DNA of 64,000 nucleotides from Aedes albopictus. Lineage: Eukaryota; Arthropoda; Insecta; Diptera; Culicidae. The notes below the pieces were generated by a model. The model had not been told where the DNA came from and made no database searches. It was given only the letters and a program-made list of their open reading frames with translations. Below are positions 8,606 to 57,691 of this stretch, piece by piece. The stretch spans positions 81,981,734 through 82,045,733 of the forward strand of contig NC_085136.1 in the NCBI RefSeq assembly GCF_035046485.1, written 5' to 3'. The translations under genes were made by a program, and so were the position numbers. Positions within the stretch are counted from its first letter, which is position 1. Every line of letters begins with the position of its first letter.

Positions 8606-8709
8606 ACCTTACTAAGTCTCTATAGAAAAGCAATGAGATGAGATTAACGATTATTTCAAAAGGCGAATGTCTAAACCTCCCATTTCAAAGTTGGAATAAT
8701 AGACTGGAG

Positions 8710-9830
8710 CAGCGTTTCTCAAACTATGGGTCGCGACCCACTGGTGGGTCGCGGGCTGATTTTTAGTGGGTCGCGAAGCTTTAGGCGTTATTGTAATATA
8801 TATCTTCCTGAACATCCTTAACTTATGTCAAAAAAAAAATACAAAAACTAAATCCAGGAATCGACAGAAAAATTGTGGAAATGAGGTTTCTCTTTTATAT
8901 TTTCTAACTCTTGAAGCTATTTTACACTCTTAAGTCGATTTTGGAACTATTTAATTTATGATCAGAAGGTTTACTGCCCCTCCTCGCATATCAGTCCCAT
9001 GTTATTTTTCAAAGTGCCTACCTTTTGTGCTATAACTCCAATTATTTCCGAAAATATGTATTCAATTCATGCATACCCTTTTCGTGGCATATTGAGCTGT
9101 GAAATGAGACGGGAAAGATATCAAATTTATTTTAAATGACCTCATGAGTGATAAAAATATGATTCGCATTAGAAATAACATCGCACTGACATGCGAAGAG
9201 GGGCAGTTTAGGATTCTGATGAAGTTTAAAATTTTCCAAACATTTTGTTTATGAACGATGAGTTCAAATTTGATTGGTGCTTGCAGTTTTCATTTGAAGC
9301 TATCTTTAAAATGCAAAGCCCAGAAGTTAGAATTTCTCAAACAAATCGGGACTACTGAATTTTGATCGAGCCCTTGGTTTTATTTAAAAATGCTGAAATT
9401 GAAAGTTAATTCTTAAAGTTCTGCAGAGACATACAATTGCCATAATGTCTTCGAAGGCTTTGTGGAATTTTTATGTTTTCCCTATTCCTAAAATGTGTGG
9501 CATAATTCCAAAAAATCTGTGGAGTTCTGCAGTTTTACATGAAGCCAGAATGGTTGAATTTTTATTAGAAGCATACCAACGTATCCCAATTTCTCAAGAC
9601 ACAGGGTTTACAGAAGCATTTGGACGTTTTAACCTTATTTTGTCTATTAAAAAATAAAACGGAAAGAACGCTGAAATTTAAAAAGTTTAAAATATCTAAA
9701 AGCAAATGTTACGTAACGTAAGCTTATCGCAATAATTTACTTTTTTTTGTGCAGAATCTTCACTGGTGGGTCGCCAAATTCTATAACAATCCAAAGTGGG
9801 TCGCAAGCTACAAAAGTTTGAGAACCCCTG
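8710..9830. mobile_element. Non-autonomous hAT element with 8-bp TSD
   Basis: Terminal inverted repeats start CAGCGTTTCTCAAACT at 8710 and end with the complement of CAGGGGTTCTCAAACTTT at 9830. They are flanked by the 8-bp duplication GACTGGAG (8702-8709 and 9831-9838). Short TIRs beginning CAG with 8-bp duplications are the hAT signature. GTGGGTCGCGA-like phrases recur just inside both ends. The interior is AT-rich; a 70-codon frame at 9445-9657 has no transposase similarity I can see. Confidence 0.9.
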
Positions 9831-9838
9831 GACTGGAG

Positions 9839-11573: not shown

Positions 11574-13134
11574 GGTCTCATCCTCAGATTGCAGCTCTGC
11601 CCATTACAAACCTCACGCAGGGCCTGCCGAAATTTCGGAAGTCGATGCTAGCAGTCGAACAAGACCGTTATGGTAACAAAGTGGCTGCGGCAGAGCCCTA
11701 GAAGCTAAAGGTATCGCAGCATACTCAGACTGGGACCTACTCATGGTCGTCAAATAGTCTGACAAATACGCCAGACGTTACTGCTGTCTTGGACTGCAAA
11801 ATGGAGAGCCAACATAGCTCTGGTTCTCACAAGTTCATACCTCTTGCAGCCACGGGTCAATCAATAACAAAGACCGCCAACTAAGAGTTGCGTGCTTAAG
11901 TAGTGAAGCAGCCTGGACACTACTGCCCTTCTGGCTTCAGCTAGATTGAGGAGGTACGTTCCGAGCGTCTGTATGCCAAGGATGTTTGGCTCCAACAGCG
12001 TCTGTACTGGCATCTAGCTGCTGAATATGAACTGCTACTCCACCAGATGCTATACCTAATATGGCAGCCCCATAAATAGTAGGATATGGATAGGAACAAC
12101 CTGAATCTCAACAAATCGCTCAAAAAACAAAAGAGCGTTGGCCCTATGTTAACTCTGGTGTACTCAGGGTACATGTGACGCAGCCGTTGGGAGAGTAGCT
12201 ACCAGGTGGCATTTTTAAGGCCAGCTGAATGCTGATCACGAGGCGAAAGGGCAATCAAGCCCGCGAATCAGGCTTGGCCAGGCGCTTCAGGAGGCTGAGA
12301 TGGTTAGTCCTGAAAAGACTGGCCCGCCCCGGCCTAAAGGGCGCAGAAGACTGAGGCCCAATGTGGATCCTCGGCCTCTACAGGTTAGTACTGGCCTGGA
12401 GGAGGACGCTCCTTAGACCCTAGTGGACAAGCGGAAGAAAAGCTGAAGTAGCGGTCAGGTTGAGCAGTTGCCAAGCGAGACACGAGTGACGGTCTCATTA
12501 TCAAGACCAACGAGTCCAAGTACGTGGATGTCCTGAAGGTGATGAGGAGCGATGCTAGGCTCTTAGATCTGGAAGCTGACGACCAGATGTACTCATATCG
12601 GGGAAATTGTCCCTGATTAGGAACGACACAGAACACGAGGGCCCTGCCTTCAAATGTTTGGCGAAGCAAGTCCTTGGCGAAGTAGTAGAAATTTTAAAAG
12701 CTGAAAATCACGGGTGCGATGAGCTCGTCACGACATTGCGTCAATCATATTTTGTGAAAGGCCTGTTAGGGACACAGGTGGCTTTGATTCGGCTACCTAA
12801 CGTGGATGCCATCGCATCCATAGAGGTAGACAAGCTCTAGGTGGGCTAGTTAGTGTGTTCATTGAGCGTATACCAGTCACCGAAGGCTAATTTAGGTATT
12901 TCGAACCCAAACACAAGCCTTGGGATTGCAAGAGCAAGTTTCGCAAGCTTTGTGAAGCCGAAAACTGCTCGAAACCTGCTGAGTGTTTGGACAGTTCCGG
13001 GAAATCGGAAAACAGCAAACACTCGGAGGAAGGCCAATCACCGTCAGTGTCTCATCAAATTACAGTGCTGCAGGAAACGCAACTGAACCACTGTGATGCA
13101 GCCTTGCAGAGGATTGTCAAGCAGTTATATACTG
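11574..13134 (+). pseudogene. R1-clade non-LTR retrotransposon remnant (ORF1 and start of ORF2)
   Basis: Decayed gag-like ORF1. The frame at 12607-12840 (FKCLAKQVLGEVVEIL, ELVTTLRQ, GTQVALIRLP) aligns with the ORF1 of the R1 copy at 31.6 kb (YKRLAEEVLGEVV, VLVTALRQ). Downstream, in another frame, KHKPWDCK and KLCEAENCSK look like worn zinc knuckles. ETQLNHCDAALQ at about 13075-13115 equals the VTQLNLNHCDAAQQ start of ORF2 in the other copies. The copy stops where a foldback MITE begins at 13135, and the endonuclease does not resume beyond it. Many stops and shifts; clearly older than the other two R1 copies. Confidence 0.65.
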
Positions 13135-16302: not shown

Positions 16303-17052
16303 GAAAATGCTTTGACATCCATGTGCACAACAGAACATGTGCTCGATGAACAAATTGAGATTTGAAATTATGAAAAGAAATCCACGTACTCCGGTGAGAC
16401 TCGAACTCACGACTCCCAATTCGCTAGACGGGCGCTTCTATTCCTTCAAGCTACGCTGTTGTGCACATGGATGTCAAAGCATTTTCAACAGTGTAATTTC
16501 CCACATGGCTTGGTCAGCCAAAACAAAATCAAGAAATTGACATTTGTAAGGTGCTACGGTCACCCTTACCGTATTCGGTCGGCCGAGGACCGACCCGTCG
16601 AGAGTCCGACTGCACACTAATTGCCATACCAATAAGTGATTGGAAGGCAGTGCCCGAAGCTCTCGACAATTAAAAATAACTCCCTCTCCCGCTTTGACAT
16701 ACATGTGCACAACAGACAATGTGTTAGATGTTCATCTAATCCCATCCGAAGGGGGTTTGGATTGTGAAAAGAAGATAACCATGTGCGATTGTGGAATCGA
16801 GTTCAGTTCTAGGCCTGCTGGCGACGGAGATAGTCGAGTGACTCCGTAGCTTGAAGGAATAGAAGCGCCCGTCTAGCGAATTGGGAGTCGTGAGTTCGAG
16901 TCTCACCGGAGTACGTGGATTTCTTTTCATAATTTCAAATCTCAATTTGTTCATCGAGCACATGTTCTGTTGTGCACATGGATGTCAAAGCATTTTCAAC
17001 AGTGTAATTTCCCACATGGCTTGGTCAGCCAAAACAAAATCAAGAAATTGAC
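16303..17052 (+). mobile_element. Composite SINE-like insertion with 15-bp TSD
   Basis: Splits a satellite monomer and is bounded by the duplication AGAAGAGCAAATGTT (16288-16302 and 17053-17067), a length usual for LINE-driven retroposition. It holds two copies of an 83-bp end segment (starting CTGTTGTGCACATGGATGTC at 16457 and 16970, both ending AAATCAAGAAATTGAC) and two tRNA-like modules in opposite orientation. The first module lies between inverted 30-bp copies of the GTTGTGCACATGGATGTC segment (16305-16335 and 16456-16486). Confidence 0.75.
16840..16913 (+). pseudogene. tRNA-like module inside the composite SINE
   Basis: T arm intact (GTGAG/CTCAC around TTCGAGT) and acceptor stem mostly paired (ACTCCG with CGGAGT). 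The region GCCCGTCTAGCGAATTGGG stands in for the anticodon arm but does not form a proper one. B box GAGTTCGAGTC. A second copy in reverse orientation lies at about 16386-16452, with its acceptor stem disrupted. Confidence 0.6.
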
Positions 17053-20560: not shown

Positions 20561-23090
20561 TTTCTCATCTCTCGTCTAATCTCTCACTTCATCTCTCATC
20601 TCATCTCTCATCTCATCTCTCATCTCATCTCTCATCTCATCTCTCATCTCATCTATCATCTCATCTCTCATCTCATCTCTCATCTCATCTCTCATCTCAT
20701 CTCTCATCTCATCTCTCATCTCATCTCTCATCTCATCTCTCATCTCATCTCTCATCTCATCTCTCATCTCATCTCTCTTCTCATCTCTCATCTCATCTCT
20801 CATCTCATCTCTCATCTCATCTCTCATCTAATCTCTCATCTCATCTCTCATCTCATCTCTCATCTCATCTCTCATCTCATCTCTCATATCATCTCTCATC
20901 TCATCTCTCATCTCATCTCTCATCTCATCTCTCATCTCATCTCTCATCTCATCTCTCATCTCATCTCTCATCTCATCTCTCATCTCATCTCTCATCTCAT
21001 CTCTCATCTCATCTCTCATCTCATCTCTCATCTCATCTCTCATCTCATCTCTCATCTCATCTCTCATCTCATCTCTCATCTCATCTCTCATCTCATCTCT
21101 CATCTCATCTCTCATCTCATCTCTCATCTCATCTCTCATCTCATCTCTCATCTCATCTCTCATCTCATCTCTCATCTCATCTCTCATCTCATCTCTCATC
21201 TCATCTCTCATCTCATCTCTCATCTCATCTCTCATTTCATCTCTCATCTCATCTCTCATCTCATCTCTCATCTCATATCTCATCTCATCTCTCATCTCAT
21301 CTCTCATCTCATCTCTCATCTCATCTCTCATCTCATCTCTCATCTCATCTCTCATCTCATCTCTCATCTCATCTCTCATCTCATCTCTCATCTCATCTCT
21401 CATCTCATCTCTCATCTCATCTCTCATCTCATCTCTCATCTCATCTCTCATCTGATCTCTCATCTCATCTCTCATCTCATCTCTCATCTCATCTCTCATC
21501 TCATCTCTCATCTCATCTTTCATCTCATCTCTCATCTCATCTCTCATCTCATCTCTCATCTCATCTCTCATCTCATCTCTCATCTCATCTCTCATCTCAT
21601 CTCTCATCTCATCTCTCATCTCATCTCTCATCTCATCTCTCATCTCATCTCTTATCTCATCTCTCATCTCATCTCTCATCTCATCTCTCATCTCATCTCT
21701 CATCTCATCTCTCATCTCATCTCTCATCTCATCTCTCATCTCATCTCTCATCTCTTCTCTCATCTCTTCTCTCATCTCTTCTCTCATCTCATATCTCATC
21801 TCATATCTCATCTCATCTCTCATCTCATCTCTCATCTCATCTCTCATCTCATCTCTCATCTCATCTCTCATCTCATCTCTCATCTTATCTCTCATCTCAT
21901 CACTCTTCTCATATCTCATCTCATATCTCATCTTATCTCTCATCTCATCTCTCATCTCATCTCTCATCTCATCTCTCATCTCATCTCTCATCTCTCATCT
22001 CATCTCTTATCTCATCTCTCATCTCATCTCTCATCTCATCTCTCATCTCATCTCTCATCTCATCTCTCATCTCATCTCTCATCTCATCTCTCATCTCATC
22101 TCTCATCTCATCTCTCATCTCATCTCTCATCTCATCTCTCATCTCATCTCTCATCTCATATCTCATCTCATCTCTCATCTCATCTCTCATCTCATCTCTC
22201 ATCTCATCTCTCATCTCATCTCTTATCTCATCTCTCATCTCATCTCTCATCTCATCTCTCATCTCATCTCTCATCTCATCTCTCATCTCATCTCTCATCT
22301 CATCTCTCATCTTATCTCTCATCTCATCACTCTTCTCATATCTCATCTCATATCTCATCTTATCTCTCATCTCATCTCTCATCTCATCTCTCATCTCATC
22401 TCTCAACTCATCTCTCATCTCTCATCTCATCTCTTATCTCATCTCTCATCTCATCTCTCATCTCATCTCTCATCTCATCTCTCATCTCATCTCTCATCTC
22501 ATCTCTCATCTCATCTCTCATCTCATCTCTCATCTCATCTCTCATCTCATCTCTCATCTCATCTCTCATCTCATCTCTCATCTCATCTCTCATCTCATCT
22601 CTCATCTCATCTCTCATCTCATCTCTCATCTCATCTCTCATCTCATCTCTCATCTCATCTCTCATCTCATCTCTCATCTCATCTCTCATCTCATCTCTCA
22701 TCTCATCTCTCATCTCATCTCTCATCTCATCTCTCATCTCATCTCTTATCTCATCTCTCATCTCATCTCTCATCTCATCTCTCATCTCATCTCTCATCTT
22801 ATCTCTCATCTCATCACTCTTCTCATATCTCATCTCATATCTCATCTCATCTCTCATCTCATCTCTCATCTCATCTCTCATCTCATCTCTCATCTCATTT
22901 CTCATCTTATCTCTCATCTCATCACTCTTCTCATATCTCATCTCATCTCTCATCTTATCTCTCATCTCATCTCACATCTCATCTCTCATCTCATCTCTCA
23001 TCTCATCTCTCATCTCTCATCTCTCATCTCTCATCTCTCATCTCTCATCTCTCATCTCATCTATCATCTCATCTTTCATATCATCTCATG
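20561..23090. repeat. 12-bp satellite (CATCTCATCTCT)n, about 2.5 kb
   Basis: About 200 copies of a 12-base unit. The repeat has no stops in several frames, which creates a 940-codon plus frame (SHLS, then LISS, then LISH as the phase shifts) and MRDE-repeat minus frames; none is a gene. Phase breaks near 21990 and 22415. A variant cluster containing CACTCTTCTCATATC recurs at 21901, 22328, 22815 and 22923, revealing larger duplicated blocks. Confidence 0.95.
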
Positions 23091-23093
23091 TCA

Positions 23094-23210
23094 TCCTTCC
23101 CTAACCCTCCATCCTATCCTCTACACTCCCCTCTACCCTACCTTCTACCCTACCCTCTACTCTAACCCTCTACCCTACCCTCAACCCAACCTTCTACTTA
23201 CCCTACCTTC
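23094..23210. repeat. CTACCCTACC-type repeat, left part
   Basis: Degenerate units such as CTCTACCCTACC and CTAACCCTC. It continues at 27258 after the TIR element. It resembles telomere repeats only loosely, has no fixed period, and flies and mosquitoes do not use TTAGGG telomeres. Confidence 0.75.
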
Positions 23211-23524
23211 TACACTCAAACCTCCATTTAAGTAATGAGTCGGGGATACTTAAATGGATCCATTACGTAAATGGATTCATTACGTAAATGGATTCTGTTT
23301 TTGACTTAAATAGAGTTCATGCTCTTCCATAGCATTTTCGTCAAAATATTTACAGTATTATCGAAATAAGCCAATAGACCGTTAGGCCGAAAACGTATTT
23401 AGGTCGAAAGGGCCATTTGGCCGAAAAAGTTGTTAGGTCGAAGGGGTCATCAGGCCGATATATCGTTTGGTCGGAAAAAGGTCGTGTGGACGAAAAATAT
23501 TGTTACATTAATGTGTTTATTTGG

Positions 23525-25690
23525 CCGAATAGGTCATTAGGCCGAATAGGTCAATAGGCCGAATAGGTCATTAGGCCGAATAGGTCATTAGGCCGAATAG
23601 GTCATTAGGCCGAATAGGTCATTAGGCCGAATAGGTCATTAGGCCGAATAGGTCATTAGGCCGAATAGGTCATTAGGCCGAATAGGTCATTAGGCCGAAT
23701 AGGTCATTAGGCCGAATAGGTCATTAGGCCGAATAGGTCATTAGGCCGAATAGGTCATTAGGCCGAATAGGTCATTAGGCCGAATAGGTCATTAGGCCGA
23801 ATAGGTCATTAGGCCGAATAGGTCATTAGGCCGAATAGGTCATTAGGCTGAATAGGTCATTAGGCCGAATAGGTCATTAGGCCGAATAGGTCATTAGGCC
23901 GAATAGGTCATTAGGCCGAATAGGTCATTAGGCCGAATAGGTCATTAGGCCGAATAGGTCATTAGGCCGAATAGGTCATTAGGCCGAATAGGTCATTAGG
24001 CCGAATAGGTCATTAGGCCGAATAGGTCATTAGGCCGAATAGGTCATTAGGCCGAATAGGTCATTAGGCCGAATAGGTCATTAGGCCGAATAGGTCATTA
24101 GGCCGAATAGGTCATTAGGCCGAATAGGTCATTAGGCCGAATAGGTCATTAGGCCGAATAGGTCATTAGGCCGAATAGGTCATTAGGCCGAATAGGTCAT
24201 TAGGCCGAATAGGTCATTAGGCCGAATAGGTCATTAGGCCGAATAGGTCATTAGGCCGAATAGGTCATTAGGCCGAATAGGTCATTAGGCCGAATAGGTC
24301 ATTAGGCCGAATAGGTCATTAGGCCGAATAGGTCATTAGGCCGAATAGGTCATTAGGCCGAATAGGTCATTAGGCCGAATAGGTCATTAGGCCGAATAGG
24401 TCATTAGGCCGAATAGGTCATTAGGCCGAATAGGTCATTAGGCCGAATAGGTCATTAGGCCGAATAGGTCATTAGGCCGAATAGGTCATTAGGCCGAATA
24501 GGTCATTAGGCCGAATAGGTCATTAGGCCGAATAGGTCATTAGGCCGAATAGGTCATTAGGCCGAATAGGTCATTAGGCCGAATAGGTCATTAGGCCGAA
24601 TAGGTCATTAGGCCGAATAGGTCATTAGGCCGAATAGGTCATTAGGCCGAATAGGTCATTAGGCCGAATAGGTCATTAGGCCGAATAGGTCATTAGGCCG
24701 AATAGGTCATTAGGCCGAATAGGTCATTAGGCCGAATAGGTCATTAGGCCGAATAGGTCATTAGGCCGAATAGGTCATTTGGCCGAATAGGTCATTAGGC
24801 CGAATAGGTCATTAGGCCGAATAGGTCATTAGGCCGAATAGGTCATTAGGCCGAATAGGTCATTAGGCCGAATAGGTCATTAGGCCGAATAGGTCATTAG
24901 GCCGAATAGGTCATTAGGCCGAATAGGTCATTAGGCCGAATAGGTCATTAGGCCGAATAGGTCATTAGGCCGAATAGGTCATTAGGCCGAATAGGTCATT
25001 AGGCCGAATAGGTCATTAGGCCGAATAGGTCATTAGGCCGAATAGGTCATTAGGCCGAATAGGTCATTAGGCCGAATAGGTCATTAGGCCGAATAGGTCA
25101 TTAGGCCGAATAGGTCATTAGGCCGAATAGGTCATTAGGCCGAATAGGTCATTAGGCCGAATAGGTCATTAGGCCGAATAGGTCATTAGGCCGAATAGGT
25201 CATTAGGCCGAATAGGTCATTAGGCCGAATAGGTCATTAGGCCGAATAGGTCATTAGGCCGAATAGGTCATTAGGCCGAATAGGTCATTAGGCCGAATAG
25301 GTCATTAGGCCGAATAGGTCATTAGGCCGAATAGGTCATTAGGCCGAATAGGTCATTAGGCCGAATAGGTCATTAGGCCGAATAGGTCATTAGGCCGAAT
25401 AGGTCATTAGGCCGAATAGGTCATTAGGCCGAATAGGTCATAAGGCCGAATAGGTCATTAGGCCGAATAGGTCATTAGGCCGAATAGGTCATTAGGCCGA
25501 ATAGGTCATTAGGCCGAATAGGTCATTAGGCCGAATAGGTCATTAGGCCGAATAGGTCATTAGGCCGAATAGGTCATAAGGCCGAATAGGTCATTAAGCC
25601 AAATAGGTCATTAGGCCGAATAGGTCATTAGGCCGAATAGGTCATTACGCCGAATAGGTCATTAGGCCGACTAGGTCATTAGGCTAAATT
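23525..25690 (+). repeat. 17-bp satellite array A, about 127 copies
   Basis: Unit GGTCATTAGGCCGAATA, almost identical from 23540 to 25590, degenerate at both edges (23380-23525 contains GGCCGAAAAAG-like worn copies). Its complement is TATTCGGCCTAATGACC, which differs from the array B unit at two of 17 positions. Confidence 0.97.
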
Positions 25691-25747
25691 GTCCATTGGG
25701 CCGAATGGCTCATCAAAAAGTTTGTACAAGAAACCTTGCTGTTCGTA

Positions 25748-27090
25748 TTAAACCCTTTTCGGCCTAAAGACCTTTTCGGCCTAAAGACCTTTTCGGCCTA
25801 AAGACCTTTTCGGCCTAAAGACCTTTTCGGCCTAAAGACCTTTTCGGCCTAAAGACCTTTTCGGCCTAAAGACCTTTTCGGCCTAAAGACCTTTTCGGCC
25901 TAAAGACCTTTTCGGCCTAAAGACCTTTTCGGCCTAAAGACCTTTTCGGCCTAAAGACCTTTTCGGCCTAAAGACCTTTTCGGCCTAAAGACCTTTTCGG
26001 CCTAAAGACCTTTTCGGCCTGAAGACCTTTTCGGCCTAAAGACCTTTTCGGCCTAAAGACCTTTTCGGCCTAAAGACCTTTTCGGCCTAAAGACCTTTTC
26101 GGCCTAAAGACCTTTTCGGCCTAAAGACCTTTTCGGCCTAAAGACCTTTTCGGCCTAAAGACCTTTTCGGCCTAAAGACCTTTTCGGCCTAAAGACCTTT
26201 TCGGCCTAAAGACCTTTTCGGCCTAAAGACCTTTTCGGCCTTAAGACCTTTTCGGCCTAAAGACCTTTTCGGCCTAAAGACCTTTTCGGCCTAAAGACCT
26301 TTTCGGCCTAAAGACCTTTTCGGCCTAAAGACCTTTTCGGCCTAAAGACCTTTTCGGCCTAAAGACCTTTTCGGCCTAAAGACCTTTTCGGCCTAAAGAC
26401 CTTTTCGGCCTAAAGACCTTTTCGGCCTAAAGACCTTTTCGGCCTAAAGACCTTTTCGGCCTAAAGACCTTTTCGGCCTAAAGACCTTTTCGGCCTAAAG
26501 ACCTTTTCGGCCTAAAGACCTTTTCGGCCTAAAGACCTTTTCGGCCTAAAGACCTTTTCGGCCTAAAGACCTTTTCGGCCTAAAGACCTTTTCGGCCTAA
26601 AGACCTTTTCGGCCTAAAGACCTTTTCGGCCTAAAGACCTTTTCGGCCTAAAGACCTTTTCGGCCTAAAGACCTTTTCGGCCTAAAGACCTTTTCGGCCT
26701 AAAGACCTTTTCGGCCTAAAGGCCTTTTCGGCCTAAAGGCCTTTTCGGCCTAAAGACCTTTTCGGTCAAGGACCTTTTCGGCCTAGGACCTTTTCGGCCC
26801 AAGGACCTTTTCGGCCTAAGGACCTTTTCGGCCTAAGAACCTTTTCGGCCTAATGACCTTTTCGGCCTAAACACCTTTTCGGCTTAAAAACCTTTTCGGT
26901 ATGAAGACCTTTTCAGCATAAACACCGTTTCGGCCTAAAGCCCTTTGCAGCTTAATGACTTTTGCGGTCTAACGATTTTTGCGGCCCAATCACGTATTCA
27001 GCCTAATGACCTATTCGGCCTTTTGACCTGTTCGGCCTAATGACGTGTCCAGCCTCATGACTGGGCCGAAAAGGTCCCTATTCGGCCTAT
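25748..27090 (+). repeat. 17-bp satellite array B, about 60 regular plus about 20 worn copies
   Basis: Unit TTTTCGGCCTAAAGACC, regular to about 26760 and then decaying through forms such as TTTTCGGCTTAAAAACC to TATTCGGCCTAATGACC near 27000. The decayed outer edge contains exact array A complements, so both arrays descend from one unit. Confidence 0.95.
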
Positions 27091-27257
27091 TCAGCCTAAT
27101 GACCTTTTCGATGAACAGTTGTTTTTGAAACCGTAGCATATTTACAATTGCTTTGCTGTAAATACAGTCAAATTCCATTTAAGTTGCGTTACTTAAATGG
27201 AGGGACTTTAATAGAATTTACTTTAATGGATTCGACTTAAATGGAGGTTTGAGTGTA

Positions 27258-27575
27258 CCCTACTCTCTACCCGAACCCTCTAGCCAACCCTCTACCTTAA
27301 CCCTCTACCCAACCCTCTATCCTACCTTCTACCCTAACCCTCTACCCTACTCTCTACTCTACCTTTTACCCTACCCTCTACCCTACCTTCTACCCTACCA
27401 TCTTACATTACCCTCTACCCTAACCATCTACCCTACCCTCTACCCTAACCCTCTATCATAGTCTCTACCCTACCCTCTACCCTAACCCTCTATTATAGCC
27501 TCTACCCTACACTCTACCCTAACCCTCTACCCTACCCTCTACCCTACCATCTAACATTACCCTCTACCCTAACCC
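27258..27575. repeat. CTACCCTACC-type repeat, right part
   Basis: Continuation of 23094-23210: CTCTACCCTAACCCTCTACC and similar. The 70-codon frame YPTLYPTFYPNPLPY is this repeat translated. Confidence 0.8.
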
Positions 27576-27616
27576 TCAATGTATCATATGTATCACATGT
27601 TACTTGTTCCCGAATA

Positions 27617-35479: not shown

Positions 35480-38400
35480 CCAAGATTTTTTTCCACAGCT
35501 TAATTCAGTGATTCCATCTTGGCTTCTTCCAGAAATTCAATCAAGAATTCATCTAGGGATTCCACTAGACATTTTTTCGGGGATTTGTCCTGAGATATCT
35601 TTAGAGGTTCCTCCAGTAATTGTTCCAGTGCTTTTTTCGAAGTTTCCTTCAGGGATTTCTCCAGAGATCCTTTAAGGTATTTCTGCAGGTATTCAGAGAT
35701 TTCTACAGATTTGATTTCTTCATTTTTTTATCCAGGAATATTCCTACAAAAAATCTTCCAGGTATTCGCTAAGAAAGCTCTCCTGAGATTCCATAAAGAG
35801 TTCCTAATGGGGCTTGCTTCCGGGATTCCTCATCGGGTTTCTTCAGAAATTACTTCAAAAGTTCCTCCAGGGATTCACCGGAAATTTCTTCTGTTATTCT
35901 TACAAAAACGAATTCCGAGATTATTATAAACATTTCTAGAAGAACTCTTATTGGGATTCCTTCAGAAAATCCCGCACGAATTAATCCAGGATTTCAGGAT
36001 TTCCTCAGGAATTTCAGCGTTTCTTCAGTATTTCCCCTGAGAATTCTTCAGAAAATCCTCCTGGAATTCCCTCAGAAATCGCACTTTGTATTTCATCAGG
36101 AATGAATCTTGAGATTCCTCCAGGAACTCCTTCGGAAATTCCTCTCGGATTTTTTTCAAGAATTATTCCAGGTATTCCTCCTGGCATGCCTCTAGGATTT
36201 CATTCAGGCATTTCTCCGGAGACTTCTGCAAGAGTTCTACCAAGAATTTCTCCAGGTATTACCCCAGGTATTTCCTCATGAATTACTCCAGGAATTTATT
36301 CAAGTTTGGATCCAGGAATTCTTCCATGAATTCCTCCGAAAATTCTTCCAGGAATTTTTTCTTTAGGGTTTCCTCTGCACATTCCTCCAGGATTTATTTC
36401 ATGGATCCCTCCAGGAATTCCACCGATGATTCCTGCAGTAATTCCTCCAGAAAATCCTCCTGGAACTCCACCAGAAATTCTTTTCTGAATTCGTCTAAAA
36501 ATTTCTCCAGGAATTCCTTCAGAAATTTTTCCATGGATTCCTTCCAGAATTCCTCTCGAGATTCTTCCAGGAATTCATTCAGGGATTCTCAAGATATTCA
36601 TTTAGTGATTCCTCCTGCAGTTCTTCCATGAATAGTTCCACGAATTTTCCCCAAGATTTATTTCCTATAGAGATTTGTCCAGGAATTCCTCCTGAGGTTC
36701 TCCCAGAAATTGTCTCAGGGATTCCTCCAGGTTTTTTTTTGCAAGAATTCCCCCAGGGATTCTTCCAAGTAATTCTCTAGAAATTCCTCTAAGGATGCCT
36801 CCAGGAATTCCTAAAGAGGTTACTTAAGTATTACCCCAAGAATCCCTTCAGAAAGTCCTCCAGGAATTGATCCAGGAACTCCTATAGAAATTCCTTCAGA
36901 AATTACCACCGCAATTTCTTCAGGAATCCCTCCAAAACTTCCTCTGGGAATTCATCTAGAAATTTCTCTTGGATTTTCTTCAGAAATTTCTCTTGGAGTT
37001 TCTTCAGAAATTTCTCTTGGAATTTCTTCAGAAATTTCGGAAATTCCTCCATTAACTGCTTCCAGAATTTCTCTCGAGATTCCTCCAGGAATTCATTCAA
37101 GAATTCCGCAAGGAATTTATCCAGAACTTCCTGCAGGAATTTTTCCAGAACTTTCAAGGCATTCCTCCTGAGGTTTCTCCAGAAATTGCTTCAGGGATTC
37201 CTCCAGGGATTTTTCAAAGAATTTTCCCAGGGATTCTTCCAAGGAAATTTCTCTAAGGATTCCTCTGGGAATTTTTCAAGAGGTTTCTTTAGAAATTTCT
37301 CCTGGGAGTTTCTCCATGGACTCATTCCGGGATTTCTCCAGTAATTCATCTAGAGATTGCTTCAGGAGTTCTTCTAAAAACTCCAAACTCCACTAGATTG
37401 CTCCCAGAATTCTTTTGAAAACTCCACCAGGAACTCATCTACAAATGTATCCAGAGATTACTCCAGGCATTAGTCCAGGTATTTCTCCAGGGATTTTTCA
37501 AGGAAATTCCCCAGGGTATCCTCCAGGGTTTTCTTAAGGAATTTCTCGAGAGATTCCTCCAGGAATTGATACAGGCATGCCTCCAGGAATTTATCCAGGG
37601 GTTACTCCAGGCATTCCTCCAGAGATTTCTATAGGGATTCCTCCAGGCGTTAATCCAGGATTTCTTCAGAAATTACTACCGCAATATCTCCAAGAATTTA
37701 TCTAGAAAATCTTCCAGGGATTCATTTAGAAACTACCCCAAGAATTCCTCCTGGAGTTTATCCAAGAAATATTCCAATAATTCTTCCTGGGATTCCTGAA
37801 TGATTTCCTCCTGTGATTTCTCTAGGAATTCCTTCAAATATTTTTTCAGGAATCTTCCAGGAAATCCTCAAGGGATTCTTTTAAAAATTTCCCCACAAAT
37901 TCTTTCTGGAATTTATTCAAGAATTATTCTAGGTATTCCTCCTGGCATTCTACCAGGATTTCATCCAGGCATTTCTCCAGGGACTCCTCCAGGAGTTCTA
38001 CCACGAATTTCACCAAAAAATACCCCAGGTATTTCTTCAGGAATACTTTCGGTAATTTATTCAGGAATGGATCCAGGAATTCCTCCAGGAATTTCTTCGA
38101 AAATTCGTACAGCAATTCCTTCAGGAATTGTTCCAGGAATTCCTCCAGAAATCCTTCCAGGGTTTCCCCCAAGAATTAATCCAGGAATTTCATCTCCGCG
38201 GTTTCCTCTTCACATTCCTCCAGGAATTATTTCATGGATTCCTCCAGAAATTCCTCCGATGATTTCTCCAGTAATTCTTCCAGAAATTCCTTCTGAAATT
38301 GCTCCTGTAAGTCCTCCAGAAATTCCTGGAACTCCATCAGAAATTCCTCTTAGAATTCCTCTAGGAATTTCTCTAGGAATTTCTTTAGGAATTTCTCTAT

Positions 38401-39420
38401 GAATATATTCAGAAATTTCTCCATGGATTCCTTCCAGAATTCCTCTAGAGATTCTTCCAGGAATTCATTGAAGGATTCCTCAAAGAATTGATTAAGCGAT
38501 TCCTCCTGGAATTCATCCATGAATAGTTCCATGGGATTTCCCCAAGATTTCCTATAAAGATTTGTCCAGAAATTCCTCCTGAAATTCCACCTGGAACTTG
38601 TCCGGAAGTTCCTCCAGGAATCCCGCCTAAGGTTCCTCCAGAAATTTGTTTCAGGGATTTCTCCAGGGTTCTTTCCAAGAATATCTCCAGGGATTCTTTC
38701 AAGAATTTTTGTAGAAATTTCTCTAAGAAATTTTGCGGGAATTCCTTATGAGGTTTCTTCGGAAATACTCCAGGAATTCCTTCAGAAAGTCCTTCAGGAA
38801 TTCATATAGGAATTCATATTCCTCTTGGAATTCCTTAGAAATTACTACTACAGTGTCTCCAGGGGCTCTTCAAGAAATTCCACCAAGATTTACCGTAGAT
38901 ATTTCTTCAGCAGTTCCTACAGGAATTTCTTCAGATATTGATCCAGGAATCCCTCCCGGAATTTCTTCGGAAATTCCTACAGCATTCCTCCAGGAATTTC
39001 TGCAGGAAATCCTTTAGAGATTGCTTCCGATATTCGTTCAGGAAATTCTTCAGGAAATTCTATAGGATTTTTTCCAAGGGAATCCTCCAGAAATTCTTTC
39101 AGGTTTCCTCTAGGAATAAATCCATGAATTTCAACTCCAGGGATTCCTCTAGAAATCCGTCCAGGAGTTATTTCACAGGTTCTTCTAGAAATTCCACCAG
39201 AAATTCCTCCAAGCATATACCGGAAATTCCTGCAGGGATTCCTCTGTGAGATTCCTCCAAGAAATCCTCCTGGAATTCCTCCAGAAATTCCTCTGGGAAT
39301 TCTTCTAGAAATTTATCTTGGAATTCCATCAGAAATTTCTCTAATGCTCCAGGCATTACTCCAGGAACTTCTCCAGGGATGCCTCCTTCAGAAATTTATC
39401 CATTAACTTTGGAGCCAAGG
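35480..39420 (+). repeat. Degenerate minisatellite, ATTCCTCCAGGA type, about 3.9 kb
   Basis: Hundreds of loosely conserved units of about 15 bases built from ATTCCTCCAGG, AATTTCTTCAG and GAATTCCTCC, all in one orientation. Open frames across it (for example 37800-38402, rich in GIPPGI, and minus frames rich in EEFLEE) are low-complexity translations of the repeat, not collagen-like or coiled-coil genes. Confidence 0.9.
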
Positions 39421-47650: not shown

Positions 47651-48338
47651 ACCATAGGGGGATAATCTGCTCAACAGACACCCTAACAGAAGGTTAGGGT
47701 AGTGTAGGTCTGAGGCCGTCTTCTGCAACAAAAGTAAAAGCCAGGACTACTCTCTCCTCGTACCCACTAAACCATTCCTATGGTTGCCAAACCCTACGTC
47801 TCTCCGGAACCACCAAGAAGGTATTGCTTCAGAGAGGGGCTAGTGCACATCGCACCCACAAGGTTAGCTGCGTAGCCTGCAGCAACGAACATCGATGACT
47901 CGCTTTGGAGAGTCCATCACGGTAGCATGCTGGCGCTTAGCCAGTTTCCCGAGTGGTCCTCGCCACTCCCTTTGTCCTCGGAAGGCGGGCAACCCCACCC
48001 GCGCCCAACTGCTGAGCGGACATAAAGAACTGATGCCCACATGCAACCCGATCTGACCTGCCCGCAAAGGAAGGGTATCACTACCCTTCAGGCCCTATCA
48101 GATGCATCCGTAGGTTGCAGACAGCAGGGTCTCACCTACCCCGACCCTTGCCGGGGACCCCTTTCCAACCGCGGGCTCGGATCCAACTCAGTAGACTGAC
48201 GCCACGACAGCACCGCTACCGGGACTTCCTCTCCGCGGCCACTTAATCGCTGTAAGGGTCGATCTCGACCGCAGGGCTCCGGTATGACCTACGAAGCTGA
48301 CTTCGAACCCCTGGACCACCTCTTGAACTGCATCTGGA

Positions 48339-50553
48339 CTAGCCATTCTCCGAGTCCACGCGCCACCTCCTCTGTAGCTCCCAGACGATATGGGTGATAG
48401 CCGTTGAAACGGCATTCCAGCTAATCTCATCCCCACACATTCTCTGGACCAAGTTGTCCGGAGTTGTGTCCTCCCCGCATGTGGCAAGCATGCGGTCACG
48501 CATTGTGCGAAAACGCGGGCACACGAACAAAACGTGTTCCGCCGTTTCCTCTAAACCATTGCACAATGGGCATTCGGGAGAATCCGCATGCCCGAAACGG
48601 TGTAGATACTGTCGGAAGCAACCATGACCTGCAAGGACCTGTGTCAGGTGGAATGTAACTTCCCCATGGCGCCTATTAATCCAACTATCTACCCGCGGTA
48701 TCAACCTATGGGTCCACCTTCCTTTGGTGGAACTGTCCCACGCGCGCTGCCATTTAACCATAGAGGCCATCCTGGCAGTCCTGCGTATGCCTCTTGTGCC
48801 GCGCATTTCGAAGCACTCCGTGTCCTCACTGATAAGAATGCTGATAGGCACCATACCAGTAATGACGCAGAGAGCGTCGTGTGACACCGTACGGTACGCG
48901 CTCGCAACCCTCAGGCACATAAGCCTGTAAGTACTTTCCAGCTTCCGTCGGCAGGATTTAGTACTTAGCGCGGTGCCCCACGCCGGGCCGCCATACCTAA
49001 GTATGGACGTAGCAACACTAGCCAGAAGCTTGCGCTTACTGGCGTACACCGCAGAGCTATTGGACATCATCCGGGACAGTGCCGCAATAGCTGTGGAGGC
49101 TCTTTTACAGGCATAATCGACGTGGCTACCGAAGGTAAGCTTATCGTCGATCATCACGCCCAAGTGTTTGACGGAGCGCTTTGATAGGATAGTGCACTCT
49201 CCTACACTGATCTCCGTCTGCTGCTCCGACTTCAGGTTGTTAACAACTGTCACCTCTGTCTTGAGGTGAGCCAGCTCTAGTTTCCTGGACCGCATCCACG
49301 CCTCCACAACCTTGATCGAGTGGTTGGTAGTCAACTTTACCTCCTCGATCGTTTCACCGTAGACTTCGAGCGTAATGTCGTCGGCAAATCCGACAATCAC
49401 CACTCCCACTGGGTACTCTAACCTCAACACCTCGTCGTACATGACATTCCATAACACCGGACCCAGGATGGAACCTTGCGGGACTCCTGAGGTTATGTGA
49501 AAGCACTTCCGACCCACCTCCGTGTCGTAGACTAGTACACGATTCTGTAAGTAACTTCCGAGAATCTTGTACAGGTACTCCGGTATCCCCAGACGCAAGA
49601 GCGCATCGGCAATAGCAGACCAGCTGGCGCTATTAAACGCATTCCTAACATCCAGAGTCACTACTGCGCAAAAAACGAATTCCCCTCCTCTTAGGCTCGA
49701 GTGCTTTCTCGGCGGTTTTTGTAACCGACAAGATAGCGTCTACGGTGGACTTCCCCTTCCGGAAGCCGTACTGGTTACTCGAAAGACCATTTTCGCCCTC
49801 GGTGAACCTCAACATTCTATTGAGGATGATCTTTTCGAGCACCTTCCCCGCCATGTCAATCAAGCATATTGGTCTATATGTCGACGGGTCTCCGGGTGGT
49901 TTCCCCGCCTTTGGCAATAGTACCAGGCTCTGCCTCTTCCAAGCTTCTGGGAAAACTCCCTCGTCCAGGCATTTCTGCATAGCAGACCTGAACATCTTGG
50001 GAGCCTCTGCAATAGCTACTTTTAAGGCCAGGTTCGGAACTCCGTCCGGACCTGGGGCCTTACCTACGCTAAGGGACTTAGCTATCCCCGCAAGTCCCGC
50101 ATCGGTGACCCTCTTCTCATCGCCAGCCCCAGTCCCCGGCTGTCCTACGAAAGGAGGCCAAGGACTAGGATCATGACGCGGAAAAAGTCCTCCAATGATC
50201 CCCTCCAACATCTCTGGAGATTGCTCTGTAGGAGCCATCACACCTCTCGTCTTGGCCATAACGACCCTGTAGGCGTCACCCCACGGGTTCGTATTGGCAC
50301 TCTGACAGAGACCCTCAAAGCAGGCCTTTTTGCTTGCTCTTATCTCAGTCTTAAGCGCGGCTTTTGCAGCGGCGAACACCACCCGCCGTTCGTTTCGCTC
50401 TTCCTCTGATCGTGCTCGCTGCATCCGCCGCCTAGCCCGTAGGCAGGCGCGGCGCAGGTCCGCAATCGCGTCGGTCCACCAGTAAGCTGGTGGCCTCCCA
50501 TTTCTAGGGTGGACTCGCCTAGGCATGGTCGCATCACACGCACGTGAGAGCAC
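48339..50553 (-). pseudogene. R1-clade ORF2 reverse transcriptase and C-terminal zinc knuckle, one frameshift
   Basis: Two overlapping frames: 50553-49645 and 49661-48339. The first holds the linker and reverse transcriptase blocks (VGKAPGPDGVPN, EAWKRQSLVLLPKAGKPP, YRPICLIDMAGKVLEK, QYGFRKGKSTVDAI). The second holds motif A (VRNAFNSASW), SGVPQGSILGP, catalytic FADD (49377-49388), LGVMIDDKLTFGSH and the C-terminal knuckle CPLCNGLEETAEHVLFVC. The break is a homopolymer of six A (T on the coding strand) at 49670-49675, where one base too many explains the shift. It differs from the RTE copies in lacking the RWAGHVARM region. All catalytic residues visible are kept, but the frame cannot be read through. 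Confidence 0.88.
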
Positions 50554-50611
50554 CGCTACCAGCTCGTCGCCGTCTAAACCGATTAAGTTTCGCTCACGGC
50601 GGGGCGCCTCC

Positions 50612-51349
50612 CTAGCTACCCCTTCGTCGAAGTATGATGTCTTCCACCTGCGAGGGCTTGGCCTCTTCTTCTATCCGCTGTCTGCTGTTGTTGTAGTCGA
50701 TACTGTAGCGAACCGCCAGGTGGTCGCTGTGAGTGTAGCCATCATCTACTCTCCAGTTCGTACTACTTGTTAGGCCAGGACTACAAAAGGTCACGTCAAT
50801 AATTGACTCCGCTCCGTTTCGACTAAAGGTACTCTTGGTACCGACATTAGTCAAGTCGACATCTAAGATGGCCGGTGTTTCTAGCAGGATCTGACCCCGC
50901 TGGTTCGTGAAACGGCTTCCCCATTCCACGGCTCAGGCATTGAAGTCACCCGCTATTACCACCGGCCTTCGCCCTGTTAGCACGGTCGTTAAGCGGTCCA
51001 GCATTTGCATGAACTGCTCGATCGGCCACCGCGGAGGCGCATAACAGCTACAGAAGAAGACCCCGTTTACTTTGGCGACCACGAAGCCCTCATAGGTAGC
51101 AGACACCAACTCCTGGATGGGGTATTTACCAGTCGTCCATATCGCCGCCATTTTTCTGGTCCCATCCGCGACCCAGTTGCCGTTGCCGGTGGGTACTCGG
51201 TATGGGTCCGATATGATGGCGATATCCGTCTCCCACTCAGAAACCGCCTGACAAAGCAGTTGCTGAGCCGCATCACAGTGGTTCAGGTTCAGCTGCGTTA
51301 CCTGCACTGTGATTTGTTGTTCACTGCGGCTTTCTTGAAGGCCGGGCAC
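50612..51349 (-). pseudogene. R1-clade ORF2 endonuclease domain, one nonsense codon
   Basis: APE-type endonuclease that nicks the target for priming. Reads from VTQLNLNHCDAAQQ through IISDPYR, CSCYAPPRW, VIAGDFNA, then STFSRNG..IIDVTFCSP and HSDHLAVRY, which hold the usual catalytic Asp/Asn and Ser-Asp-His residues. A TGA at 50933-50935 splits it after GDFNA. Copy A has TGG (Trp) there and the frame resumes in phase, so this is a single G-to-A type nonsense change. At about 50600-50612 the frame shifts by one relative to the reverse transcriptase. In copy A the frame continues through this point. Confidence 0.85.
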
Positions 51350-51495
51350 CTTGGACCACCCATCGGATGTCTGTTGTTCGAGGATTTCCCGGTACAGATC
51401 ATGCAGATGGGCGGACTCGTGCAGCTTTGGGCCTTATGACCTTCAGCGCCGCATCGCCTGCACAGTTTGCGCCTGTCGGGGCCTTTACAGTCCCA
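51310..51495 (-). pseudogene. R1-clade ORF1, C-terminal end
   Basis: Truncated gag-like reading frame starting within WDCKG. Two zinc knuckles follow: CRRCGAEGHKAQSC (complete C-x2-C-x4-H-x4-C) and CMICTGKSSNNRHPMGGPRC (a variant with longer spacing, C-x2-C-x8-H then C). These bind element RNA in the known family. The frame ends just as ORF2 starts, an overlapping arrangement usual for R1 elements. Confidence 0.7.
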
Positions 51496-53175: not shown

Positions 53176-54327
53176 GTATACGAAACTTCAATGTCCGAAC
53201 TCTGTTCTGTTAATGTCTTCAAATATATCCAAAGAATCTCTAAACAATTTGTTGATTACATCACAAGCGCAACAGATAGCGCCTTTCAGTCTTCCCGCTT
53301 GACTTCTATCGAGTTCAGCAGTATCTTTTCCCACGGTCAAAATCTCTCCAACAAGATTCCACGAACGTGACAAAGCGGGTGACAAATTCCGCCTTGGGCA
53401 TAATTATAAACTCATCCTATCCTAAGCGCGGCTTCTACGACCCGTGAGGATGGGACGCAAAACTTCCCATCAACAAGCCCCCCACCACCTCGTGTCATCA
53501 TGTCTAGGTTGGCTAACATCGTTTAAAGCTAGATGAAGTCGCCCTCCAGACTTTCCCCCAGTTTCGGATAAATGGCGATAGCGAAAGCGAGGGTGTTATT
53601 TTTAACCACTTGGCCGGCCGACCAAAAGCTCATCAGACGCGAAAGCACGCGCCCGGTTATCTTTTCATCCCTGTGTGCTGCTTGCCGGTGGAAAAAAAAG
53701 GGTTAATGACAGTAAAATGGCAAGCACGCGTCGTTAATTTCAATCCTCTCTTCCCCCGTTTAACCCCGCTTCAGGATGAAGTTTCCCAACGTTTAAGCTC
53801 TAATGGGACTTTTACCACCTCCTTGGACATCAGTCAGTTAGTAATCTGAGATGTGGCTCCCGCCTCCCCTGGCGCTTTATCCCGTCCCAGGCGAAGAAGC
53901 TCTTGTTGACGCTAATTAGGCTGAACGTGGAGAAGCGTTGCTAGTGGCAAAATCAGGCGCATTAGAGGAAAATATGTGGCGTGAAACCATTCGAGTGGGG
54001 TTCGGTAACGGTTCGTTAACTAGCACGAACAAAGGTGACGATAAGCAGGATCGTGTCCTTCAAGTTGAAGGAGGTTATGGAGTGGGAATCTCTGGAGATT
54101 GTAAAGAATGGTTTGGGAAAGGTGGTGTCTTAAAAAAACTATTCAAGATGGGGTACGACCATTTGAGAAAAGGATCCTATGATAAAGATTATTTAAAAAA
54201 AAAATGGTCTTGGCTCAGGCCTCTATTTTGCATGGGGCACCCAAGACAGCAAACGAAGAGCTTGTTCACCTTCACTGGCTTCAATCTGCCGATGATTAAC
54301 CTGGGCTTGTTAGGGGAATATCTGTAA
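53176..54327. other. Unassigned DNA
   Basis: No recognised repeat. A 129-codon plus frame at 53938-54327 (GNGSLTSTNKGDDKQDRVLQVEGGYGV...) has no domain I know, and it runs into the palindrome. This may be unique mosquito DNA. Confidence 0.4.
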
Positions 54328-54388
54328 ATAAAAAGAAAATCGGGTTAAGTACGGTTCTTTTGAATTCCACTAAGAATTTGCATCTTTC

Positions 54389-54434
54389 GACAGATACGTA
54401 TTTCGACCTCAACTGTAAGGTCGTCTTCAGTGTC
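54389..54434 (-). ncRNA. Candidate minimal hammerhead ribozyme (minus strand, mirror copy)
   Basis: Exact complement-strand copy of the 46-base motif in the other palindrome arm, with the same core, stem II and short stem III. On the minus strand the predicted cut would fall between 54393 and 54392. If the whole palindrome is transcribed, the two arms would pair with each other and mask both motifs. Confidence 0.6.
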
Positions 54435-54470
54435 TTGTACTTGACTCGACTCGAGTCGAGTCAAGTACAA

Positions 54471-54516
54471 GACACTGAAGACGACCTTACAGTTGAGGTC
54501 GAAATACGTATCTGTC
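54471..54516 (+). ncRNA. Candidate minimal hammerhead ribozyme (plus strand)
   Basis: Parts in order: GACA (54471-54474); core CTGAAGA (54475-54481); an extra C (54482); stem II GACC/GGTC (54483-54486 with 54497-54500) closing a 10-base loop; GAAA (54501-54504); a loopless self-complementary stem III, 54504-54507 with 54508-54511 (ATAC/GTAT); C at 54512; then TGTC (54513-54516), which pairs with GACA as stem I. Cleavage would fall after C54512. The CUGANGA and GAAA boxes, the UC before the cut, and stem I pairing all fit. The unpaired C54482 and the loopless stem III are deviations; very short stem III is known in Penelope-like hammerheads and favours dimer action. Activity is not shown. Confidence 0.6.
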
Positions 54517-54577
54517 AAAAGATGCAAATTCTTAGTGGAATTCAAAGGAACCGTACTTAACCCGATTTTCTTTTTTT

Positions 54578-55140
54578 TTTATTTTCAATCTGCCGTCCAA
54601 ATTCAAGCTTCTGATCGACTTGTAACTTCTGTTTCGTGTTCATTGTTATTGCAGTTTGTACAAGGTTTTGTGCTGCACGCATTTCCGCTTTCCACTGTTT
54701 GCAATCACGCTTTTGCCAGCATCCTCTCGACGATTCTCCTTCGGCGGGTTCGTGGACACGTGTGCAATCACGAACGATCTTTCCTTCTGGCGGCATCGCT
54801 CTTCTTTTACCACTTTCAGTGATAGCTTAGACTACTTTCACAATGTAGTCGCTGCAAACGTTCAAATCTACCACTGAAACTCGTTCTTGGAATTTAAAAC
54901 GTCCAACAAAACTTCACCGTAGTTTCTGGACAAATTCCTGGAGTAGATTGGGATTTGCTAAATGTTTCAATAGTTCAGGGGCTTCAGGTTGTTAACCATT
55001 TAAGCTTCGGACATCGGAGAGTGTGTGGCGCGAACCTTCGCTACGGGCACCCGTTAAGCTATTGCAGAGTGAACAAAACTTGCGACACAATTGATGGGTG
55101 GAGCAACAAACTGTTGACGTATTCGTTCGTGCTACCTCAT
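54578..55140. other. Unassigned DNA beside the palindrome
   Basis: A T-rich run at 54570-54590, then DNA with short frames on both strands (109 codons plus at 54493-54822; 79 codons minus at 54557-54796). No domain recognised and no repeat seen. Confidence 0.4.
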
Positions 55141-55170: not shown

Positions 55171-56530
55171 CCTTGCGGGATTTCTCCGGGAGTTCCTCTC
55201 AGGTTTCCTCTAGAAATTTCTACCAGGATTCCTCAAGAAGTTTCTCTAGGAATTCCTCCCAAGATTCCTCAAGAAAATCCTCCAGGAATTCCTCCCAGGA
55301 TTCTTCCAGGAATTTCTCCTGGGGTTCTTCCAGAAATTCCTCCTGGGATTCCTTTAGAAATTCCTTTTGGGATTCCTTTAGGAATTCCTCCCGGGATTCC
55401 TCCTGGGAATCCTCTAGGAATTCCTCCCGGGATTCCACAAGAAGTTCCTCCAGCAATTCCTCTAGGGATTCCTCCCGGTATTCTTCCAGGGATTGCTACC
55501 GGGATTTCTCCAGGAATTCCTCCCGGAATTCTTACAGAAAATCCTTCCGGAATTCCTCAAGAAGTTCCTCCAGGCATTTATCCAGTGATTTCTCCCGGGA
55601 TTCTTTCAGGAATTTGTGGGGTGTGCGTATGCATAATGAGTAATCATCTATGAGTGTGCAATTTACAGTGTTTTGTCTTCCAGCGAAGTGTCAAATGATG
55701 AACAAATGGTTCATCCTTTCACTACGTCGTCACAGTGACAACCACCTCTTCGTCCTCGTACTCCAGGCGGCAACAGACCGAGTAACACGTAGGTAAGGGC
55801 CTCAGGCCTACTGTTGGGTGATTCTTCCGCAGTATTATCCGGATTCCACAGGAGATTCCTCCAGGAATTCCTCCCGGGATTCATCAAGAAGTTCCCCCAG
55901 CAATTCCTCTAGGGATTTCTCCCGTCATTTTTTCCAGGAAATACTCCCGAGATTTCTTCAGGAATTCCTCCCAAGATTTCCCTAGGAATTCGTCCCGGGA
56001 TTCATCCAGAAATTATTTTCGGGATTCCTCAATAAGTTCCTTTAGGATTTCCTCTAGCGAATGCTCCCGGGATTCTTCCTGGAATTCCTCTCAGGATTTC
56101 TCCAGGAATTCCTCCCGGGATACCTCCAGAAACTCTTCCTGGGATTTCTCCAAGTATTCCTCCCGGGATTCCTCCAGAATTACCTTCCGGAATTCCTCCC
56201 GGATTACCTCCCGGTAATCCAGGAGTTCCCGCAGGAATTCTTCCTCGGCCCCTTCTGGGATTTCTCCAGAAATTCTCCCTGGGATCCCTCCAGGAGTTCC
56301 TCACGGGATTTCTCCAGGAAGTCCTCGTGGGGTTTCGCCAGCAATTCTTCCCGAAATTCCTCCAGGAATACCTCCCGTGATGCCTCCATGAATACCTCCC
56401 AGGATTCCTCCAGGAATTGCTCCCGGGATTATTCCAATAGTACTTTCTATATGGTTCCTGCAGTACTTTTTTATAGGATTCTTCCAAGTATTTTTTCCGG
56501 GATTCCTCCAGGATTTTCCAATAAAAAGCC
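55171..56530 (+). repeat. ATTCCTCCAGGA minisatellite, forward block
   Basis: Units such as GGAATTCCTCCCGGGATTCC, more regular than at 35-39 kb. Interrupted at 55620-55840 by unique-looking sequence. Frames rich in RNSSRDSS (55098-55643) are repeat translations. Confidence 0.85.
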
Positions 56531-56559
56531 TTCTTTTCTTTTAAGAATTCATCACCAAA

Positions 56560-57620
56560 CTTCTCTAAAAAGATCCCGGAAGAAAATTGTGGAGGAGTCT
56601 CGAAAGGAATTTCGGATAAAATCCTGGAAAAAATTTCTGAAGGAATCCCGAAAGGAATTCCTGGTGGAATCCCGGAAGGCACTTTTGGAGGTATCGCAGC
56701 AGAATTCCTGAAGGAATTCCTACAGCAATTCTTGGAGGAATTCCTTGAGAAATTCCTGGTGGAACTCGTAGGGGGATTCTGAGGTGGATTTCCTGGAGAA
56801 ATCCCGGTAAAACACTTGGAGGAAACCCGAGAGGAGTTCCGTAAGGAATCTCGGAAGGAACTCCTTATAGAATCCCCGAAGGAACCATGGAAGGTAGCTT
56901 TGGAGCAATTCCAGAATAAACTCCTGGATAAAATTCGGAAGGAACTCATGGAAAAATCGCATATGAAAATTCTGGAGTTATCTCGTAAGGAATTCCTGGA
57001 GGTATTTTTGAAGGAATTCCTGGAAGAATCCCGGAACGGACACTTGCAGAAATCCCGGAAGGAACTCCTGAAAGTATTCCGGAAGGAATCATGTGAAGAA
57101 TTTCTGAAGAAATCATGGAAGGAATGCTTAGAGAGCCCCAAAAGAAACTCCTGGAGGAATACCTGGAAGGAACTTCTGGAGGAATTATGGAAGGAACTTG
57201 CCGAGGAATGCCAGAAGGAACTGAGTGAATCATGGAAGGAACTTCTGGTGAAACCCAGAAGAAACTCGTTGATGAATCCCGGAAGGAACTCCTAGGAGAA
57301 TCCCGGAAACGACTCCTGGAGTACTCCCATAAGGAAATTCTGGAGGAATCTAGAAAGAAACTCATGAGGGAATTTCAGAAGGAACTAGTTAATTAATCTC
57401 GAAGGAAACGCCTTAAGGAATCCAAGAAGGGGCTCATGGAAGAATCTCGGAAGGAAGTCCTGGAGGAATTTCGGAAAGAACTCCAGGAGAAACTCCAGAA
57501 AGAACTCTTGGGGGAATCTTGGAAGGAACTCCTGGAGAAATTTTAGAAGGAACTTCTGGAGAAATTCTAGAAGAAACTCCTGGAGGAATCCCGGAAGGGA
57601 CTCCTGGCGGAATTATGGAA
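56560..57620 (-). repeat. ATTCCTCCAGGA minisatellite, reverse block
   Basis: Units GGAATTCCTGGAGGAATCCC and GGAAGGAACTCCTGG are the complement of the forward block. The switch lies near 56530-56570. Long frames here (370 codons minus at 56029-57141, 159 plus at 56816-57295) are low-complexity products. Confidence 0.85.
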
Positions 57621-57691
57621 GTGTTAGTGCTGAGGTAATGGTTAATGAGAAAGCAATTGAAGTTGTTGAAGTGTATCATGAAACACTTGTG

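Follow-up and report, generated by a model that had tools for sequence, protein, structure and literature searches.

A spacerless palindrome of 254 bases in Aedes albopictus DNA carries a hammerhead-like motif in each arm, and it is most simply explained as a double-sided retroinsertion. We consider it rather probable that it represents one retroinsertion, in which one target site received two severely 5'-truncated ends of the same Penelope-type element, arranged head to head. Coordinates below refer to the window, that is, the whole 64-kb stretch of DNA that was analysed.

A palindrome with a hammerhead-like motif in each arm

The near-perfect palindrome claimed in the original prediction is real, but the span given for it (54389..54516) was too short, and the true extent is 54326-54579. 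Its two arms (54326-54452 and 54453-54579) are 127 nt each and identical at 124 of 127 positions, with three mismatches between them. The inversion stops at the flanks outside the 127-nt arms. The features of the palindrome are the following.

54326..54452, minus strand: left palindrome arm, read as a putative 5'-truncated copy in minus orientation
54453..54579, plus strand: right palindrome arm, read as a putative 5'-truncated copy in plus orientation, taken to run on to 54583
54450..54455, no strand assigned: CTCGAG at the head-to-head junction, self-complementary, a possible annealing site for cDNA ends
54389..54434, minus strand: minimal type I hammerhead-like motif, predicted cut after 54393; 20.0 bits and E 2.2e-4 with the covariance model R1 (see below)
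54471..54516, plus strand: minimal type I hammerhead-like motif, predicted cut after C54512; 21.6 bits and E 6.1e-5 with R1
54504..54511, plus strand: self-complementary ATACGTAT, predicted by a two-copy cofold to form stem III when one motif pairs with another in trans

The motif is 46 nt long, identical in both arms, and has the order GACA-CUGAAGA-C-GACC-loop-GGUC-GAA-AUAC-GUAU-C-UGUC. As had been predicted, the core boxes are present in each arm and stems I and II are paired there, and a descriptor scan found one such motif per strand. CUGANGA, GAA, A15.1-U16.1 and H17 are all in register with stems I and II, in the type I arrangement. The claim that UC precedes the cut was also correct, the residues being AUC on both strands, with cuts predicted after C54512 on the plus strand and at the mirror position, 54393, on the minus strand. 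The two weak points named at the outset hold as well. Stem II does not follow CUGANGA directly, one extra C lying between them, and stem III (AUAC/GUAU) is not closed in cis because its loop is absent. The extra C is able to pair with G12, and unconstrained folds adopt this C-G12 pair.

The descriptor was drawn up once the motif was known. It permitted 0-1 nt between CUGANGA and stem II as well as a loopless stem III, and required four pairs in stem II, three in stem III (loop from 0 nt) and four in stem I. When both strands of the 64 kb were scanned, just these two places matched; the same descriptor, whether G-U pairs were allowed or not, gave no match in 150 dinucleotide shuffles. The two matches count as a single event because the arms copy each other. 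The 42-nt core likewise occurred in both arms only, and the window was otherwise empty of matches at up to 3 mismatches. The CTGANGA box by itself showed no excess over chance, with 36 occurrences in the window against 40.27 expected. Its core, its stems and their register make the motif a fair candidate minimal hammerhead.

A second copy of the arm, or of the extension of the left copy described below, was not found in the 64-kb window, where the other blastn matches were 12-22 nt long with a best E of 0.075. Six oligonucleotide sequences from the arm were not met in the searched literature.

Covariance searches and viral hammerheads with one extra base

Rfam searched at the gathering score over the whole window gave no hammerhead and only two tRNAs. 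These candidate tRNA matches lie at 1751-1824 (38.9 bits) and 16840-16914 (31.1 bits), with a gathering score of 29. At E up to 10, no hammerhead family was listed for the 501 nt or the 61 nt around the motif. The covariance check that the original prediction had proposed thus gave no match at the window, but results with viral sequences indicated how such a blank result should be read for a variant with a one-base insertion.

IMG/VR was searched with a pattern consisting of CTGANGA, one base and the start of a stem, then GAAACGT, which gave 31 contigs (L001-L031). A complete type I hammerhead, with each of its three stems at least four pairs long and a GUC cut site, was present in 16 of the 31 loci. 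The inserted base, whose presence was demanded by the search pattern, was T in 15 of them and C in one (L015). When Rfam was run at the gathering score on 15 of the 31 loci, no match was obtained, though 10 of these 15 are complete. With E raised to 10, the locus in L008 gave just a weak Hammerhead_II match in another register (16.2 bits, E 0.66). Rfam therefore tends to miss the extra-base variant, so that its blank result for the window carries little weight.

The 12 distinct members of the 16 complete loci were aligned, four duplicates being excluded. In this alignment 97.8% of the cells pair, and 8 of the 15 pairs vary on both sides, including all five of stem I. The shuffle mean for such both-side changes was 4.6, and sliding the partners lowered pairing to 31-41%. 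As a side result, hammerheads with an extra base thus covary in viral contigs, and Rfam at its curated scores lists none of the 10 complete ones searched.

The model R1 is a covariance model built from these 12 viral hammerheads with a 1-nt insertion, with no window sequence in its training. Run over the window with filters off, it placed the two motifs first and second among the 19 matches listed, the next having an E of 0.74; E-values of models like R1 are rough. With a sequence-only model from the same alignment, the 23 matches listed at E up to 10 all lay away from the motif, although this model scores local pieces and the comparison with R1 is inexact.

The R1 scores of the window motifs, 20.0 and 21.6 bits, are modest compared with the 46-76 bits of complete viral members. 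On the 31 viral loci R1 gave 39 matches at E up to 1. Among loci judged incomplete, L003 scored 18.6 bits, L005 and L029 17.7 each, L022 17.1 and L030 16.9, and L018 was also within 16-19 bits. L026 reached 31.8 bits, and L012, which is incomplete solely by a mismatch in stem II, reached 66.8. Since incomplete loci reach 16-19 bits, the window scores are slightly above what a core with imperfect stems obtains. It was the descriptor, and not the R1 score alone, that established the paired stem I and the register.

The viral hammerheads resemble the window motif in the insertion between CUGANGA and stem II and in the type I order, and L015 shares the C; unlike the window motif, they close stem III with a loop and have a GUC cut site. 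They come from IMG/VR contigs, of which L023 alone looked phage-like, by eye from its list of ORFs. Patterns of the window motif, exact or degenerate, gave no match in viral_contigs and none in genome_contigs, a collection from which the window's own genome and very near ones may be absent. Separately, four of the viral contigs showed three R1 matches each (L014 at 1152-4272, L023 at 12021-13077, L025 at 991-3712 and L010 at 3764-6501), scoring 27.9-76.1 bits and spaced about 250 nt to 2.7 kb apart. Rfam at the gathering score gave none in L010 and L014, the two of these four contigs on which it was run.

Penelope-like hammerheads and predicted folding

Minimal type I hammerheads of Penelope-like elements have reportedly been described by Cervera and de la Pena in 2014 and by Lunse et al. 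in 2017. In the available part of a published account, they are tandem minimal type I hammerheads without helix III in these elements, and motifs of the minimal type are said to be capable of self-cleavage as dimers (PMC7761336). The window motif shares with them, as far as the available parts of the sources describe them, the type I order, the CUGANGA and GAA core with stems I and II, a stem III that is reduced or absent, and possible dimer action (PMC7761336, PMC6466107). It differs in occurring as two inverted copies, where those sources describe direct tandem ones, and in having an extra C after CUGAAGA. Penelope-like elements carry a hammerhead in the pseudo-LTR region, and of this arrangement the locus shows the motif itself. 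The parent element was likely a member of the Penelope group. A literature search joining hammerhead, Penelope and Aedes aegypti found no paper. Penelope-like elements have a Penelope-type reverse transcriptase, together with a GIY-YIG endonuclease in the canonical members. Neither domain was found in the 10 window ORFs scanned, 5 of which carry RVT_1 and are LINE-like. Broken LINE-like reverse transcriptase ORFs lie at 4587-11545 and 48188-51433, and some of those in the window we take to be like R1 LINEs.

Stem III, AUACGUAU, is loopless and self-complementary, as a hammerhead acting as a dimer would need. It may be loopless because two motifs together would form an 8-bp helix to which each contributes one half, and the motif would then be of the minimal, dimer-acting kind. 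The minimum-energy cofold of two copies was a double hammerhead, with an 8-bp stem III between the strands and stem I in trans. The predicted energy was -29.3 kcal/mol, or -25.3 kcal/mol with the core and the extra C forced open and the pairing retained, against -10.5 kcal/mol for the monomer. The energy of dimerisation was discarded as evidence, an equal gain being found in 183 of 500 shuffles. In these models, the register of the dimer pairing, rather than the energy gain, would be the telling point.

A different fold is predicted for the palindrome's own transcript. Here, the CUGAAGA box is paired with a probability of at least 0.999, and each strand holds only one motif. The motif would thus not cut itself at this locus, because its box is paired and has no second motif on the same strand. 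The hammerhead-like motif is probably inert here, one long hairpin being the predicted fold of RNA read across the palindrome. A foldback with self-cleaving ends on both strands, which had been put forward as an option, therefore found no support as a working device, minimal-type motifs being said to be capable of self-cleavage as dimers. The hammerhead-like motif would instead belong to the RNA of the parent element.

The hairpin also drew matches to Rfam microRNA and small-RNA families. A microRNA precursor was rejected, the best match being mir-624 with 54 bits against a gathering score of 100. All these matches were under their gathering scores and were set aside as typical of any long perfect hairpin.

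Ends and origin of the palindrome

The palindrome and its extension lie between two copies of a 12-bp direct repeat. The features at the ends are as follows.

54280..54291, no strand assigned: left copy of the 12-bp direct repeat TTCAATCTGCCG, a probable target-site duplication
54584..54595, no strand assigned: right copy of the 12-bp direct repeat TTCAATCTGCCG
54292..54325, minus strand: 34-nt extension of the left copy past the palindrome, read as a putative counterpart of the optional Penelope tail
54322..54397, minus strand: 76 nt of the left copy that resemble an intron, with GTATCT ... ACTTAAC, a pyrimidine tract and TTTACAG, recognised by eye

The ends, the repeat and the inversion are observed at the locus. 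The gap between arm and repeat is 34 nt on the left and 4 nt on the right. Counted from the predicted cuts, one copy extends 71 nt and the other 101 nt downstream, and the T-tracts of the two copies differ in length (5 vs 10). Of 3000 placements with this geometry drawn at random, mostly away from tandem arrays, 20 shared at least 12 bases; drawn from the entire window, which is rich in repeats, such sharing was common (419 of 2963 placements). In the intron-like stretch, ACTTAAC resembles a branch site as judged by eye. The Penelope element of D. virilis has a 75-bp intron, and Penelope terminal repeats have been described in both direct and inverted orientation.

A published parallel for the unequal ends is PAc, a Penelope/Poseidon-clade element of Anolis carolinensis (PMC11167929). 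According to the available part of that report, the hammerhead of PAc cuts 26 nt into the ORF and the commonest start of reverse transcription is 111-118 nt into it, so that the two are 85-92 nt apart; an optional tail of 30-40 bp is the stretch between two start sites; and the PAc protein cleaves both strands of the target and extends them in vitro (PMC11167929). The same part states that the PAc hammerhead shows no cleavage without the element's protein, and that mutants were without effect on insertion in vitro (PMC11167929). Our reading of the locus would share with PAc, as described there, a hammerhead upstream of internal start sites, an optional 30-40-bp tail and extension of both strands. 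It differs in that PAc copies form tandem or partial-tandem repeats, a head-to-head product being undescribed for PAc in the available part of the report, whereas the locus is head to head. The ends at 71 and 101 nt, from one locus, compare with 85-92 nt plus a 30-40-bp tail in PAc, a distant element. By this analogy, the unequal ends fit one copy with a tail and one without. The proposal of a head-to-head Penelope-like remnant gained partial support, in that R1 ranks the motifs first and second and that the flanking 12-bp repeat with its unequal ends fits the published tail.

The cuts and joins of such a retroinsertion can be reconstructed conditionally. An endonuclease/reverse transcriptase encoded by the element would make a staggered cut in both target strands, as the 12-bp direct repeat suggests. 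Each cut strand would prime reverse transcription of the element's RNA from an internal site lying downstream of the hammerhead. One copy would begin at the nearer of two such sites and the other roughly 30-34 nt beyond it, which would give the untailed and the tailed copy seen as unequal ends. The two short cDNAs may then have met at the self-complementary CTCGAG and joined, giving an exact palindrome. That the locus is, in this full sense, the footprint of double-sided target-primed reverse transcription on a Penelope-type RNA, with two alternative starts and cDNAs joined head to head, we propose only tentatively. The exact symmetry of the junction counts against a retroinsertion, as it demands a special joining step; so does the fact that a single locus supports the tail and the target repeat, with the distances for comparison taken from a distant element. 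Self-primed hairpin copying of one cDNA was judged less likely, because the flanks past 127 nt are not inverted and the copies extend unequally.

The unequal ends also bear on the other possible origins. One is a DNA transposon of the foldback or MITE-like kind, mobilised by a transposase, in which the inverted repeats are 127 bp long and the hammerhead likeness is carried along or coincidental. It would account for long inverted repeats with a flanking direct repeat, and MITEs are abundant in Aedes aegypti according to the available part of one report (PMC3259105). However, the inverted repeats do not adjoin the target duplication on both sides, with 34 nt intervening on the left and 4 nt on the right, and R1 scores both arms above everything else in the window. 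We therefore regard a DNA transposon as unlikely. Unlikely too, and placed after it, is a pre-existing palindromic unit, such as a non-autonomous Penelope derivative with a hairpin RNA, that was transcribed and inserted whole. The exact central symmetry would follow naturally, as would the stable hairpin predicted for the whole unit (-214.4 kcal/mol), but the different extensions past the arms (34 vs 4 nt) and T-tracts (5 vs 10) are not by themselves predicted by it. Still less probable is chance or an assembly artefact, in which a foldback error built the palindrome and doubled one accidental hammerhead-like string: foldback artefacts can produce spacerless inverted copies, the two motifs amount to one event and the R1 score is modest, but the arms have three mismatches and unequal ends, the inversion ends at 127 nt and is followed by the 12-bp repeat, and the descriptor had no match in 150 shuffles.

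If the double-sided retroinsertion is correct, the locus would be an in vivo counterpart of the both-strand extension by PAc in vitro, and it would suggest a route to inverted pairs of Penelope-type copies. Should palindromic pairs of a tailed with an untailed arm prove common, they would show priming on both strands in vivo.

The repeats of the window include long tandem arrays at 20563-27577, with units of 12 bp (TCTCATCTCTCA), 17 bp (ATTAGGCCGAATAGGTC), 17 bp (CCTTTTCGGCCTAAAGA) and 12 bp (TACCCTACCCTC). GC skew is strong in these arrays, reaching -0.74. Diverged arrays of 12/24 bp, whose units resemble ATTCCTCCAGGA, were found at 36114-39386 and 55180-57621.
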